Shown: one piece after another, positions 33,396 to 45,900 of the stretch
Position numbering within the stretch: position 1 is the first letter of the stretch
Layout of the letters: each line of letters starts with the position of its first letter
Assembly (NCBI GenBank): GCA_034509925.1
Contig: CM067533.1
Coordinates: 3,114,535-3,178,534 of the forward strand
Source: Hirudinaria manillensis
Lineage: Eukaryota > Annelida > Clitellata > Hirudinida > Hirudinidae
Direction of reading: 5' to 3'
DNA length: 64,000 nt
Translations under genes and position numbers: made by a program
The notes under the pieces: model-generated
Told to the model about the DNA's origin: nothing
Databases searched by the model: none
The model's input: the letters and a program-made list of their open reading frames with translations, nothing else

Positions 33396-33403
33396 GTGGC
33401 CGG
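33396..33403. repeat. 8-bp target-site duplication, left copy (GTGGCCGG)
   Basis: Exact match to 34244-34251 on the other side of the hAT element. Eight bases is the duplication length of the hAT superfamily. Confidence 0.9.
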
Positions 33404-34243
33404 TAGTGAACGACCGGGGACCCCGGACCCGGCTGAACCCCGGCCTTTTTTACCACCGGGGTCCCGGCCCGGTCCCGGCTTTTTAACATTCCCCAGTCCC
33501 GCCCCGGCTTAAATTCAACCGGGGTTTAGCCGGGGGTAAACAATAGTCTAATTTTTAACTTTGTCAACTTAAATAAAATTTATTCATCATCCGATGAATC
33601 ATAAAATATATCGTTCGGAGAGTTAAAGTCCTCAGGTACCCATTCACCAATAATATTTCATGGAGCTTTCTGGAAAATCCATCAGTCATCCTAGATATCC
33701 AATCTCCTCGTAGCTTTTAAGTTAAAAAAAAAACATTACTGGATTCCTCAACAAGATTCAGGTACCTCCCCTCGAAAGGAGCCCGAGAAAGTTTCCTTAA
33801 CTCGATGGGGTTAAATAAACATCATCGGCTGGAAACTGGAATGATGTCCTTAAAACTACCGTTTAACTTTCATCACTGTTGCGTTCACAAAACAGTAATC
33901 AATTAGTATTCAATAAGATTTGATTTTCATGAGATTCTATCAACGATTTAATGTTTTTCTAAGTTTTCGCAACGGAGCGTGGAAGAGTTGTCGTTGCGAA
34001 ATTTTTTTTTAATTACAGGTTTTACAGAATCTCTTTGACATAATAAGCATACTTATATATTATTTGACGTTTACAACATGTTTAGAGAATAAAAGCACCG
34101 TTAGTTAACGTTATTATAGATGGCCTCCCCAACCCCGGCTTTAACCCCGGCCCGCCTGAACCCCGGTCCCGGCTGCCCCCGGCAACCGCTCCCCCTACCC
34201 CGGCCCCGGTCCCGGCTAAAATTGTCGCCCCGGTCGATCACTA
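33404..34243. mobile_element. Non-autonomous hAT transposon (MITE-like) with CCGG-rich ends
   Basis: The 840-bp element starts TAGTGAACGACCGGGG and ends in the reverse complement TAGTGATCGACCGGGG, matching 15 of 16 bases. It is flanked by the exact 8-bp duplication GTGGCCGG. Terminal TAGTG and an 8-bp duplication are hallmarks of hAT elements. About 140 bases inside each end are packed with CCCCGGC / GCCGGG words in a very GC-rich stretch, while the middle (about 33545-34120) is AT-rich and has no transposase frame. The end repeats may be transposase-binding sites, as subterminal repeats are in other hATs. Removing the element and one duplication rejoins the host retrotransposon. Confidence 0.88.
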
Positions 34244-34251
34244 GTGGCCGG
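34244..34251. repeat. 8-bp target-site duplication, right copy (GTGGCCGG)
   Basis: Exact partner of 33396-33403. Confidence 0.9.
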
Positions 34252-36107: not shown

Positions 36108-37612
36108 ATGTCAGCTCAGAAACGCAAGCGAACCGACTTTACGCTGAAGGAGAAGAAGGAGATCATCGATGCCATGAAGAAGGAACCAAATCATTCCAAA
36201 CTGGCCAGGGAGATTAGCAAGAGATGGGGAGTCGAAGTTAAGAGAACCACTGTGAGAGGCATTCTCAGCAGGACGAATGCAATTGAGGCTGCAATCAAAG
36301 CTGGAGTTCCATCGAAGCGCATGAAGCTGACGCAGGCTCACTACCCAAAGCTCGACGAGGGAATGCTCATGTGGCTGAAGCAAACAAGAGGACAGAATCT
36401 GCCTGTCGGTGGCGATCTGATCAAAGAGAAGGCAATGAAACTGGCTGAGCTGATGGACATCCCAGACTTCATGGCAAGCCACGGTTGGCTGGACAATTTC
36501 AAGAAGCGCCACGGCATCACATTCAAGAAAATGCAGGATGAAGCCGGAGCAGTGGATTCGCAATCCCTTCTAGAGTGGCAACAACAGGTTCTCCAGCCCT
36601 TGCTCCTTCAGTTCTCCGAAGATGACGTCTTCAACCTGGACGAGACTGGAGTCTTCTGGAAGCTGCTTCCAAACGATACCATGGTTTACAAGGGAGAGCA
36701 GTGTACTGGAGGAACGAAAAGCAAGGAAAGGATCACTCTTCTGGTCGGGACAAATATGAGCGGCAATGAGAAGTTCCCTCTTCTGGTGATTGGCAACTCC
36801 AAGAGACCCCGTTCCTTCGAGAACAATGAGATCCCAGTCACGTACAGGGCGAACTCGAAGGCATGGATGACGACGGAGCTTTTCGAGGAGATGTTGCTCG
36901 CATGGGACGCAGAGTGCTGCTCTGTCTCGATAACTTCTTTGGCCACCCTCCGAAGCTCCAGCTGGACAACATCCGACTGGTCTTCTTCCCACCCGGCACG
37001 ACAGCCAATTCACAACCGATGGGTCAGGGAATCATAGAGAACCTCAAGTCCCACTACAAGAAGCTCCTGCTGTGCCGCCGGCTCGAGGCCGTGGACGAAG
37101 GAAAAGAGTTTGAGTTCACGTTGCTCGACGCTCTACACGTATTACGGCTTGCTTGGGAGCAGGTCAGCAAGTCGACAATCAGGAACTGTTTCGCAAAGGC
37201 CAAGTTTATTGAAGAAGATATCCAAACTGAGCCAGAGGATTCTGAGCTGCTTGAGATCTGGAAAGCTCTGCCTGCAGAGGAAAAGATGCACAAGAACGGG
37301 GAGATCGAGCTGTCCGACTTTCTCGGAGCCGACGAGCTCCTTGCGACCGGCGGGTTTTTCACTCTGGAGGAGATTGCAGAGGAGATGCTGTGCAGCGAGG
37401 AGGCGGTAGAAAGCGAAGACGAGATAACTGTCGACGAGGAAATCGTTCCACTAGAGGAAGCCCAGCGTGCATGGGGCACCGTCCGAAAGTTCATGCAGCA
37501 GAGAAGCTGGAGGACCGGCGCGATGCAAGCGTGCGATCGGCTAGACAACGAGATACGCAAGATCTGCCAGAAGAAGATACGCCAGCCGACGATTCAGAGA
37601 GCCAACGGGTAG
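36108..37612 (+). pseudogene. Pogo/Tigger (Tc1-mariner) transposase, one frameshift
   Basis: A 309-codon frame (36108-37037) and a 249-codon frame (36863-37612) overlap and together make about 500 residues of a Tigger-type transposase. Order: CENP-B-like N-terminal helix-turn-helix (DFTLKEKKEIIDAM), the second CENP-B HTH (ASHGWLDNFKKRHGI), then the DDE_1 core with VFNLDETGVFWK (first Asp), RVLLCLDNFFGHPP (second Asp), FFPPGTTANSQPMGQGII and a later acidic residue in TLLDALHVLRLAW. The second half is one frame off from about 36890. One indel is the only visible lesion, so the copy is fairly young. Host TIGD-type domesticated genes have this architecture too, but the frameshift argues for a mobile copy. 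Codon use is far more GC-rich than the surroundings. Terminal repeats were not found. Confidence 0.85.
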
Positions 37613-39935: not shown

Positions 39936-42900
39936 GTCAGCAAATATCAATGTTGATTCCGTCATCAGCGCCTTCGATCAGATTCAACTGAAACGTTGGA
40001 CTGAGAGCAATACTGTCCAAGCATCCGATGAATCCCTTCGAATATTTGTAGAAAGTTCCGTGTGCCACGTCATCCATTCCACCTTGAAAAAAAAATCGAA
40101 CCAATCGAATCGGGAAGGTTTTATCGTTTCATCAAATATTTTGTTTGGTGTATCCAAATCTGGTTTGCGATTCACGACATATTATAGCTGTAGCCGCTAT
40201 TGCCGCAGGTAGATAAAAGATCAACTGTGAGCTACAATTATCTGTATTTTTAAAAATACATTTACGAGTGATAATATTACCAATAAAAAGAGCACCCTGG
40301 GCCGTTAGGTGGGTCATCAGTCCACTCGAGAGCCCTTTGACCGGCATGGAATCATCCACGTACAAATAGAGAACCTTTTTATCTCTTCGGAGTGAACAAC
40401 ATCGATTTTTATTCAGAAGTATTTCATCAATTTGACTAATAAATTTTACTATTTGTATGTTAAATACATTAATAAATTCATCACGATTTCCATCAGATAC
40501 TAGAAAATACCTAAATATCTGTAGGGTATGCCATAAGCCGTCGTCTACTTTGGTCAGGTTGTAAACGACGTTGGTCTCACCGCTACCCAAGTTGAAAGTA
40601 ACGCAGACGTGTCCTTGTTTCATTCCAACGGCAAAGAAGTCACCATATTCGCTAACATCATCTCCTGTTATCCACATCATCAAGCCGTCAGGATTGAAGG
40701 TTTTGAAGCGGAGTGACAAATTCATTGTTTTGCCGATCAGTCTGTTGTTGTTTCAGATAATAACATGTACACTTGGTGCAATGATTGACATTCATTTACC
40801 AGAAAGAATTATTGAAGTGATTTGTTTATAAGCATCACGAGTTCTAAAACCATTGACAAACTGGGCATCCTCTGTTGCAAACACCAGATGGCTTTTATGA
40901 ACATCGCTGCTTTCAGTAATGCAGGCCCCTCCAAATAAATTACAGGTTCTTATGGTTATGTGTTCTAATTATTAACGACAGCTACTTTCACGGGATGGTT
41001 TAACAAGAAGCAAATGTATGATAACCTCCTGGTAATTTTGCTGTCAATGAACAGCAAGTAGCTGTTACCGAAAAAGAAAGGGGCAGATATGGTGGTGGAA
41101 ACATCTGAAATCATCATGCGATGGTATTTACAGTCCAGCCTAATCCAACGTTTGAGTTAATTCAAGTTAATTGACTTATAATAATATTAATAAATCTATC
41201 GATGGATCAGATGTCAAATACTTTTCGTTCACTTACTTTTTTCGCAATTTTTGCTGACAAATCCGAGAGGGCAGTTGCATTTGTAAAGGTTGAGGCTGGG
41301 AACGCAGCGACCTCCATTCAAACACGGTTGAGAAATGCAGGGGTGATTGCAATCCTTCAAGTTTACGCCTGTCATCGGCTCTTCCAGGAGTTTTATTGTT
41401 CTTTTGTTGATGACGAGCTAAGAGAATCAATGCCATGTTACTTAATGTAACCTCGATGTTTTGTTTCAGAACTTAGTTGTCTGTAAATAGGATCAGCGAA
41501 GCGCCAGAGCTTCTACTGGATTGATAGTAAATTTTCAACCGTGTTATTTTTCAGAGTTTCATGGCTGAATTCAGATTGTTTTTTAAATTCTTAAATACGT
41601 TTGACAAGCAAGCAAGAGTTTACAAAAGCGTCAGACGTAAGCATTCAACGAGCCATTGTAAAATCTCTGCAATTCGATTACCTTTTGTATGCATCCTTCG
41701 AAAGATTTTTCAACCGGAACTTTTCTGGAAACCTCGTCGTAGTTCTTGTGACCTCCAATGAACAATTCCAAGAGCAGAGTGAGTTGAGTGAATGCCCCAC
41801 TTGCGATACCCTCAATCATCTGCTGATCGTTGACCTTCAGGAAACCCACCCTGCCCGTTCTGGCCGCCCAAATTGTATTCCATTCCCAAAAGATGATCGG
41901 CTCTTTGCTCCTAAATAATAATTCAGTCGATGTTTTCAATTATTAACATTTTGCCATATGTTAGTCTAAAAAGATTATAAAGTTTCGATACTTTATGATA
42001 GCATGGCCTGTTCCAAGATCGAAGGAAAAGACGACAAAGCCATTTTCAAGATAAATGGCCAGGAAATCTCCAGTTCCGTTCCTTGAATATCCATTGTATA
42101 GGAGTAAGCCGTTTCCACTTTGATGCGGCTTAACAATCAACATGATCTCCGTGTAGGACAAGACACTCCTCTGCAAACCGATGTATTGGAGATAAGAAAA
42201 CCTGGAAAATGACGGAATGTCGACCTTGTTTCCTGAAAAAGAAATAGCAATTAATTTCATTTGAATTGAATAACTATGCACCGTCGAACGTTTTATCCTT
42301 GCGTCTTTCGCAGATTCAACAGTTCGTGTAAAAAGATGATTCCAAATTCAAGGGTTTGAACGATAAAAAAAAGGTTCGATATTGGAATCCAGCCAAATAA
42401 GTCACTTTCCAAATGAGACTTCATTTGGTCTCACAAAAACTGATGAAATACTTTTGTGATTTAAGCAACACTTAATCATTTTTTTTGCTTTTCTTGTAAA
42501 TGCTAGCAAGACAGAAATAAACAGACGGAACCACGTTTATAATTGCTGTCCATCAATGAGTCGAACGTGCTTCGAAGGAGAATTCAAACTTTTCATTGAA
42601 ATGATTTGAAATTTTTAAGACCTCAAAATTAGTGAGAAATTCAAGAAGAAAAAAAGTTCATTCATGTAAATGCTCTCATTTCTTTTCATCACATTCTCAG
42701 TATAATTTTATTACTACGTCGAACCGTGGGGACAAGGACCCGCTTACCCTTGTTACCGCTGGCCCATTGAAGGATTGATTTTTGGTTTGGAAAACAACTA
42801 AAAGATCATCAACACAGCAATTCAGCATAAAATTTGCATCACTTCGACAAATTTAATGTTCTGATTATGTCAATGATTGGTGATGATACAGCGATGTAAT

Positions 42901-45900
42901 AATATTAAAAAGACAAGTTAGGACGAAATAAGGATATTAAATCCGATTAATATTTAATTATTACTTGTTCAGAAGGTCATATTTGATAATTTTAAGTCAG
43001 AAGTATTCAAGAGTTTAGGGCTCCAGTGAAACCAATGCCCTTCTTCCACGTGATTTACGAAAAACATTTACACTCGGTGAACGGGATGAGGCAGATTAAA
43101 TGGTTAAATTCAATATTTAACTATTATTAACACCTATTTTTCTCCTAAGTTCCGGCAAATGTTTCCTACAAACTGAGCCTCAAAGCCTCCCGTCGAAGTA
43201 TGTTGTGGATCCACCGCTGATCCAAAGTAATGAAAAGAATCAATGCATGTCTCTTAACAATTAATATTTGTAATTTGTACGAACTTACACTTCAGATCAC
43301 AAAATGAGGCATTATAAGCCTAATAAATATTTCGTAAATGCAATCCATCCACCATTTAATGAATAATTTATTATTATTATTATTGTTATTATTATTGTTG
43401 TTGTTATTATGTTTATTCTTTAAAGCTGTTACTAAATGATATCAATAATAATTGTTAAGTAATACATTAATAAGTAATAAATTCTTTGACTTCATGAAAG
43501 CAAGACTTGAATAAATCATTGGAAGAAAATCCTGCTGAGACGTAATCTCTCAAGTACTGCCGAACAATTCTAATAAATTTCATTTATTTTTGCCATTTAT
43601 TTCTTTAATTATATTATTTTCTTTAAAGCAAATATATATAATTGTTGTATAATAGTATAATATCGTAATTACGTAATGCTAGACGTGCAATGTTACAATT
43701 ATTTTCTTTAAAGCAAAGTATTCTTTAAAGCAGTATTGTATAATAGTTTGTATAATATTGTAATTTTGTAACGTTACAGGTGACCAGTCAGCCTAGAATG
43801 TGGAGTCCGCGCTAAATAGAAAATAATAAAGAATTACCAAATAATTAAATAATAATAATAATAAATCTAAATAGATAAATAATAAACAATTATCAAGTAA
43901 TTAAATAATAATAAATCTTTAAAAATAAATAATAAATAAACAATTATCGGATAATTAAATAATAATAATAATAATAATAGTTGATTTGTATAGCGCCATA
44001 TGCATAGCGTCGGAGGCGCTTTGTGTGATGTTGTGTCTAGTCCGGTAGGTATTTCCTGAAGAGGTGAGTCTTCAGGTGACGCTTGAAGAGCTCCAGGGAT
44101 GGCTGGGCTCTCACAGATGGGGGTAGCTCGTTCCAGACTGCCGGAGCGGCGTGTGAAAAACCTCTGTCGACGATGGTCGCCCCGTGGACCGGTTGATAGA
44201 GGTGGACGGTGTCAGATGAGCGAAGGCTAGAGGGTGGGTGGCGACGCTGTATGAGGCGATGGAGATATGGCGGACATGACGTCGCCTGTATGCGATATGT
44301 GATGGTTGATATTTTAAATGAGATTCGGGCGGCGATAGGTAACCAGTGCAGTTCTCTCAGGCACTCAGAGCTGTCAAGACACGGGTTAAGTAGCACGAGC
44401 TTGGCTAACTTATTTTGGATGCCTTGAAGTGATTGGATCAGGGAAGCAGATGATCCATACAGAAGAGAGTTGCAGTAGTCGAGGCGAGATAGAACCAGCG
44501 AGCGGGCGAGTGCAGATGTTGTGTCAACGGAGAGGAGTGGGCGGATATGACGTATAGCCCAGATGAGATGGTTGCAGGCTTTAACTATGGAGGCTACGTG
44601 TTGTCTGAAGCTCAGGTGAGAATCAAACGTGACCCCAAGAAGTTTTAGAGTAGCCGAGGAAGGGAGAGCAGTTCCTGCTATCTCTGCTGAGGACGGAGGG
44701 TTGAGGGCTTTAATGTTCGTGGGTGTACCGATGAACATGAGTTCGGACTTGTGGGGATTGAGCTGAAGGAAGTTCACGAGATGCCAGTCATTTATAGCCT
44801 CGGTACACTTACGTAAGTTGTCAAGCTGATCAGTAAGATTATGACTGGAGAGTGCGCAGTACAGGCTGGTGTCATCAGCATATTGATGGAACGATACATT
44901 GTAGGCTTGCACTATGCTGGATAAAGGCGAGGTGTGAGTAGTAAAGAGTAGGGGTCCAAGGACTGAGCCTTGGGGAACTCCAGCGAGGAGCTCTACAGGA
45001 GAGGAGGAGTGTTCACCTAGTTTGACATATTTGACATACCTAGTTCTATTAGATAGATAGGATTGGAGCCAAGATAGAGCAAGTCCGTCAATTCCAAAAT
45101 CTATCTTGAGTCTCTCCAGCAGTATTTGGTGATTGATGGTGTCAAAAGCAGCCGAGAGATCGAGGCCGACCATTGCTGCACAGCAGCGATTGCCGCATAG
45201 TCTGGAGAGGTCGTTGAAGATATGGGAGAGGGCCGTTTCTGTTGAGAAACCAGGTCTGTAGGCGGATTGAAAAGACGAAAAGTTGGAGGAGGAAGTAATA
45301 TGTGGACGGATTCTGGACAGGATGAGTCTCTCTAGCAGTTTAGACATGGTAGAGAGGTTGGAGATTGGTCTGTAATTTGCAGGGTTGGCAGAGTCAAGGT
45401 TTGATTTTTTCAGGAGAGGGAGAACCTGAGCTCTTTTGAAGATAGTGGGAAATGTGCCAGTGCTGAAGGAGAGATTTGCTAGCTTGGATAGGATAGGAGA
45501 TAGGATCAGAGCATATTTCTTGAGCAGGGGAGTAGGAAATGAGTCGAGAGGAGATGTCTTGTTTGGTAGAAGGCGAATAGCCCTGGTGACCTCTTCTGAG
45601 GACACCGGTGGGAGTATCGACATTGAAGTACCTGAGTATTGCCTGGCTGGGAAAGATGCGGTGGATGATTTGGCGATTTTGTCAGTGATTGAATCATGAA
45701 TCTTGCTTATTTTGGTAATGAAGAATGAGTTGAATGAAGTGACGAGAGCGAGACACTCTTCCTCGGTGTAATATTGTTGTGGGCGAGTGTGAAGAAGTCT
45801 GTGTAGGGCGCGCCACCTGGCACGGGGGCTCGCGTCGGAGTTGAGCTCCTCTTTGATGGCGGAAGCCCTAGAGTTGAGGATGGCGTTCCTGGCAGTCGCT

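Follow-up and report, generated by a model that had tools for sequence, protein, structure and literature searches.

The 840-bp element at positions 33404-34243 of the window, the whole 64,000-nucleotide stretch of Hirudinaria manillensis DNA that was analyzed, is short and carries no transposase gene of its own, and its sequence points almost conclusively to descent, through an internal deletion, from a ~3.1-kb hAT transposon of the Ac/Hermes type. On this reading, interrupted gap repair probably removed ~2.28 kb of the transposase gene from a long copy, between two sites with 3 bp in common. The inverted ends, along with the subterminal arrays rich in CCCCGG, would have stayed in the shortened copy, so that it could still be bound, cut, and reinserted with an 8-bp duplication by a hAT transposase, and at least 21 copies would then have arisen by amplification. 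A separate deletion, one that kept the hATC exon, would have given rise to at least 47 copies of ~1.15 kb. What results is a worked-out family in a compact genome, with its long form, two founder deletions, copy numbers, target pattern, and ends; this can serve repeat annotation and offers a clean case of MITE birth through internal deletion, and it leaves the view of hAT biology unchanged.

Boundaries and Parts of the Element

The 16-bp terminal inverted repeats (TIRs) of the element are the longest pair among the inverted repeats listed for the 64-kb stretch, and the left TIR side corresponds to the 3' side of the transposase in the parent (Table 1). An earlier, sequence-only reading had described an 840-bp element with inverted ends complementary at 15 of 16 positions and an exact 8-bp duplication, all of which can be read directly at 33396-34251. 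Its description of GC-rich subterminal blocks around an AT-rich core agrees with the GC content, which is 64% over the left 137 bp, drops to 33% over the 585-bp core, and rises to 72% over the right 118 bp. The same reading saw no transposase, which is correct in substance, except that the final 19 codons of the family gene, with its stop, remain on the minus strand. A short frame close to the 5' end that opens with ATG (MSKRFCKTCN...) was weighed and rejected, because it precedes the transposase ATG and has ACG in place of its own ATG in the long copy.

Table 1. Features of the 840-bp element and its flanks (window coordinates)
Feature	Position	Strand	Remark
Left target site duplication GTGGCCGG	33396..33403		Read directly; exact match to right copy
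Left 16-bp TIR TAGTGAACGACCGGGG	33404..33419	+	Exact in 41/53 oriented copies
Left GC-rich subterminal array	33404..33540		CCCCGG 3 on +, 4 on -; putative transposase-binding repeats
Residual last 19 codons and stop of family hAT transposase	33580..33639	-	Start codon absent
Deletion junction, 3-bp overlap	33637..33639		~2.28 kb of long form missing; alignments stop at L086:664 and restart at L086:2945
AT-rich 5' leader of long form, upstream of transposase start codon	33640..34125	-	~92% (gaps counted) to L086 and L093
Right GC-rich subterminal array	34126..34243		7 CCCCGG, + strand only; putative function
Right 16-bp TIR CCCCGGTCGATCACTA	34228..34243	-	Exact in 49/53 oriented copies
Right target site duplication GTGGCCGG	34244..34251		Read directly

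Elsewhere in the window lie a Tc5/pogo-type transposase divided between two overlapping frames (36108-37612; HTH_Tnp_Tc5, DDE_1), a 528-aa reverse transcriptase frame (44037-45623; RVT_1), LINE-like as a guess, and a frame with a Laminin G domain (40132-40725), likely an exon of a host gene.

Copies, Duplications, and Target Sites in the Genome

The genome searched comprises 148 Mb in 23 contigs, with the window on a 10-Mb contig. A search with the end motif showed that the termini recur: TAGTGAWCGACCGGGG (up to one mismatch) was found 91 times forward and 92 times in reverse, i.e., 183 times genome-wide, where the reversed control gave 1 and 0. When two ends, each with up to three mismatches, were paired at a distance of 150-3000 bp, 53 copies of 269-1244 bp were obtained; these were drawn from the best-scoring matches, so the sample leans to well-kept copies. 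Loci without such an end pair, e.g., one with a single end (L052), and one 1250-bp pairing across a nested copy were left out of the copy counts. Since the termini were the pairing criterion, the termini common to the paired copies are partly built in, and the duplication length is an independent test. The sequence-only reading had held that different termini or a different duplication length in other copies would speak against it; the 8-bp flanks were identical in 46 of the 53 copies, with one mismatch in 5 and four or five in 2.

Across the 46 perfect duplications, taken on both strands, T stood at position 2 in 52/92 and A at position 7 in 52/92. The target sites of the family lean to the Ac/Hermes pattern nTnnnnAn, which the available text of the respective papers gives for Hermes (PMC10368747) and for hobo, an Ac element (PMC8961557); the window's own duplication, GTGGCCGG, matches the pattern at position 2 alone. 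The TIR length of 16 bp fits the 10-25 bp given for the short TIRs of the hAT superfamily in the accessible part of PMC3942097, and the ends are common to the copies. The 8-bp duplications, together with a collinear long copy bearing hATC in the same genome, bear out the earlier call of a non-autonomous hAT element.

One family copy (L092, C2:9272739-9274171) resembles an inverted duplication, with hATC pieces on both strands between its ends. As an observation on the assembly, a mitochondrial COX1 match is found with equal score at C9:3026446-3027786, on a chromosome-size contig, and at C23:31-1371, which could reflect either mtDNA recently copied into the nucleus or a mis-join. COX1 reads with TGA as a sense codon, and its AGA/AGG fall at positions that are usually Ser, a code that indicates an invertebrate without narrowing it further.

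The Long Form and Its Transposase Gene

The hATC profile (PF05699) matches 68 places in the genome, many of them within family copies, where the matches lie on the strand opposite to the window element as drawn. Blended from ~1.15-kb copies, a 170-aa query scored 54.1 bits for hATC and matched the C-terminus of Hermes (E 7e-4). The residual codons in the window (C8:3148117-3148173) were matched at 100% over query residues 118-136. The stretch C6:4781900-4785200, taken up for its hATC match and end motif, belongs to a long copy, L086 (C6:4780770-4785068), with both ends present. Near its 5' end, L086 is interrupted by another, nested family member, 1147 bp long and flanked by a duplication of its own, GGAGTTAG; the net length of L086 without the insert is, by arithmetic, 3144 bp. 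With splice sites chosen by hand, the L086 transposase gene is readable as five exons with GT..AG introns, giving 659 aa. Both zf-BED (PF02892, 27.3 bits; cut-off 20.6) and hATC (PF05699, 45.7 bits; cut-off 21.4) score above their cut-offs, and the core lies below those of Pfam (DUF659, 21.6 vs. 34.7; hAT-like RNase-H, 16.6 vs. 27). When the predicted 659-aa transposase was compared with PDB chains, the best match was Hermes, across the core (E 3.4e-13), the next other protein being ZBED2 (0.078).

A search with exon A recovered two more long copies, L093 and L094, at 93-94% identity, in both of which the 3' part is cut off and stops or a frameshift are present. These two read VVRDNANNM where L086 reads VVRHNANNM. 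By the hAT motif, the Asp of VVRDNANNM would be the second catalytic acid, and the Asp-to-His change in L086, the sole copy with all five exons, probably hits this residue; in the phmmer alignment, it is the neighboring Arg, one column off, that stands opposite the Hermes Asp. Given VVRHNANNM in L086, whose flanks agree at 6 of 8 bases, and the truncation and stops or frameshift in L093 and L094, the three long copies read yielded no family transposase gene that was recognizable as intact. For the autonomous copy that the sequence-only reading had suggested looking for, the genome gave a collinear long copy with hATC whose gene was not recognized as intact.

Two Founder Deletions

Reversed and aligned to L086, the window copy differs by a single large deletion (Table 1); the two blocks that align, 536 and 237 columns long, have 19 and 7 mismatches, respectively, with gaps not counted. 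These mismatches, plus the gaps, make L086 a sister of the true source and not the source itself. The window-type junction word was found at 21 places (15 exact, 6 with one mismatch), and a second junction, mostly in ~1.15-kb copies that keep the hATC exon, at 47 places (up to two mismatches), with 0 in the reversed control for each. The family holds two founder deletions, each amplified. The test used assigned 9 of the 53 paired copies to the first junction and 37 to the second, leaving 7 with neither. From their class consensus, copies with the first junction (9 of at least 21) diverge by 1.6% on average and those with the second (37 of at least 47) by 1.5%, which argues that both classes were amplified fairly recently.

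The window copy also contains ~110 bp absent from the 1.15-kb class. Filler or captured host DNA was considered as the origin of this stretch and rejected; it is carried by all three long copies and therefore belongs to the long form. Because the all-copy consensus is without the 110-bp stretch, the value of 91-92% for the 840-bp class against that consensus is unusable as a distance.

Which Transposase Moved the Short Copies

Judging from these sequences, the short copies were quite likely mobilized by the family's own transposase. A rather less likely course of events keeps the kind of element unchanged but has a related hAT element supply the transposase that amplified both short classes. 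Such cross-mobilization would fit the lack of a recognized intact family gene in the genome, and possible donors exist. Older hAT relatives with a similar TIR core are present (L087, L089, L090, and L091, with similar ends, and L088, in which no ends were found), and their hATC is ~40-57% identical. The exon A search also returned several distant rows at 21-54% identity (including C9:988372-989325, C4:10517279, C12:4276378, and C2:4499283), among them open frames of 572 aa (C9:988372-989325) and 510 aa (C2:4499283-4499828), 21-40% identical to exon A, that may be intact. However, all five older relatives fetched have stops in hATC; ends must suit the enzyme, and the distant frames would need such ends as well. 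The copies, moreover, lie ~1.5% from consensus, so that a working family gene may be recently lost, or missing from this assembly alone.

A single 566-aa open frame with hATC at its end, at L085:1076-2776 (C3:5468575-5470275), is a candidate domesticated hAT gene; no family ends (up to four mismatches) were found within the 4 kb read near it.

CCCCGG Subterminal Arrays

Counted on both strands, CCCCGG occurs 7 times at the left end, 7 times at the right end, 0 times in the core, and twice in the remainder of the window. None of 500 dinucleotide shuffles of each end reached 7 (means 2.4 left and 1.6 right), and beyond the element no 150-bp tile, of 419 in all, contained more than 1. The dense CCCCGGC words remarked upon in the sequence-only reading amount to 3 on the left and 4 on the right, counts that 2/500 and 1/500 shuffles reached, with 0 in the remaining window. 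All CCCCGG at the right end point one way and those at the left end are mixed; the ends of Hermes are asymmetric too, as described in the available sections of PMC10368747. In L086, the 150 bp at the 3' end contain 7 CCCCGG and the initial 102 bp at the 5' end contain 5, while counts per end are 4 in L094, 1 in L093, and 0-4 in five ends of older relatives. The arrays are therefore usual but not constant in the family, and this weakens the case for a strict need for many repeats.

By analogy, and in line with the sequence-only reading of the CCCCGGC words as possible binding sites, we infer that the BED finger of the family transposase may bind the CCCCGG arrays. In the portions of the papers at hand, Hermes BED fingers bind subterminal repeats and mutation of the Tol2 repeat lowers excision (PMC10368747), and the Herves transposase binds a subterminal motif (PMC3143072). 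The first of these texts also holds a caution for CCCCGG, since GTGGC is a plausible repeat in Hermes, yet not the binding site (PMC10368747). It is a long shot that the arrays are a recently expanded landing platform, in which the number of repeats would tune competition for transposase and help to explain how two derivatives took over while the long form decayed; the older relatives read do have fewer CCCCGG than the window element.

The hATC Exon of the 1.15-kb Class

We consider it highly improbable that the ~1.15-kb class persists since its hATC exon makes a dimerization-only peptide that represses the transposase. Many copies at the 47 places with the second junction do carry the exon. 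Furthermore, in 37 copies >1000 bp, a set used for variant and frame counts and not identical to the 37 second-junction copies behind the divergence figure, the variants were 37 synonymous, 61 non-synonymous, and 7 stop, compared with 26.4, 73.7, and 4.8 expected under an assumed transition/transversion weight of 2 (p 0.018). Yet 7 of these 37 copies are full-length and in frame as far as the usual stop, another six lack any stop within the stretch, and the rest have stops or length changes; the ATG is absent from most frames. Stops are not depleted, variant density, at 0.257 per site, equals that of the non-coding parts (0.267), and the window class is without the hATC exon apart from its last 19 codons. 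In our reading, the exon is in decay and may still show slight traces of selection that acted before the deletion.

That the element is a chance inverted repeat with GC-rich low-complexity flanks has nothing in its favor beyond the low complexity of the arrays and is refuted by an end motif found 183 times, as opposed to once in the control, and by 46/53 perfect duplications.

Comparison with Known Systems

Ds and the hobo derivatives come from autonomous hAT elements that were internally deleted, kept both ends, and are mobilized in trans, and Herves is a member of the Ac family. The deletion in the window element is of the same type as in the Ds and hobo derivatives, which are taken as unrelated to it in sequence. 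Elements of the Ac family (Hermes, hobo, and Herves) are like the present family in their 8-bp duplications with nTnnnnAn, short imperfect TIRs, BED and hATC transposase, and subterminal repeats at both ends, whereas its own TIR, TAGTGAWCGACCGGGG, sets the present family apart. The putative Ac-family placement is based on the target pattern and the similarity to Hermes, with the predicted transposase compared with PDB chains only. In contrast to the CCCCGG-type repeats here, the parts available of the two sources give AAGT as the subterminal repeat of Hermes (PMC10368747) and CG/AATTCAT as the subterminal motif of Herves, a hAT element (PMC3143072).

A literature search for GC-rich subterminal hAT derivatives gave no match, which is uninformative on what is in print elsewhere. 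The nearest printed case seen is the Mar MITE family of Drosophila, described in the accessible part of PMC3517528 as recently mobilized hAT elements of the Buster group. Like the window element, the Mar MITEs are hAT MITEs whose origin is attributed to internal deletion and that have relic full-length copies. Mar is, however, placed in the Buster group in that text, whereas the present family combines an Ac-like target pattern with two separate founder deletions.
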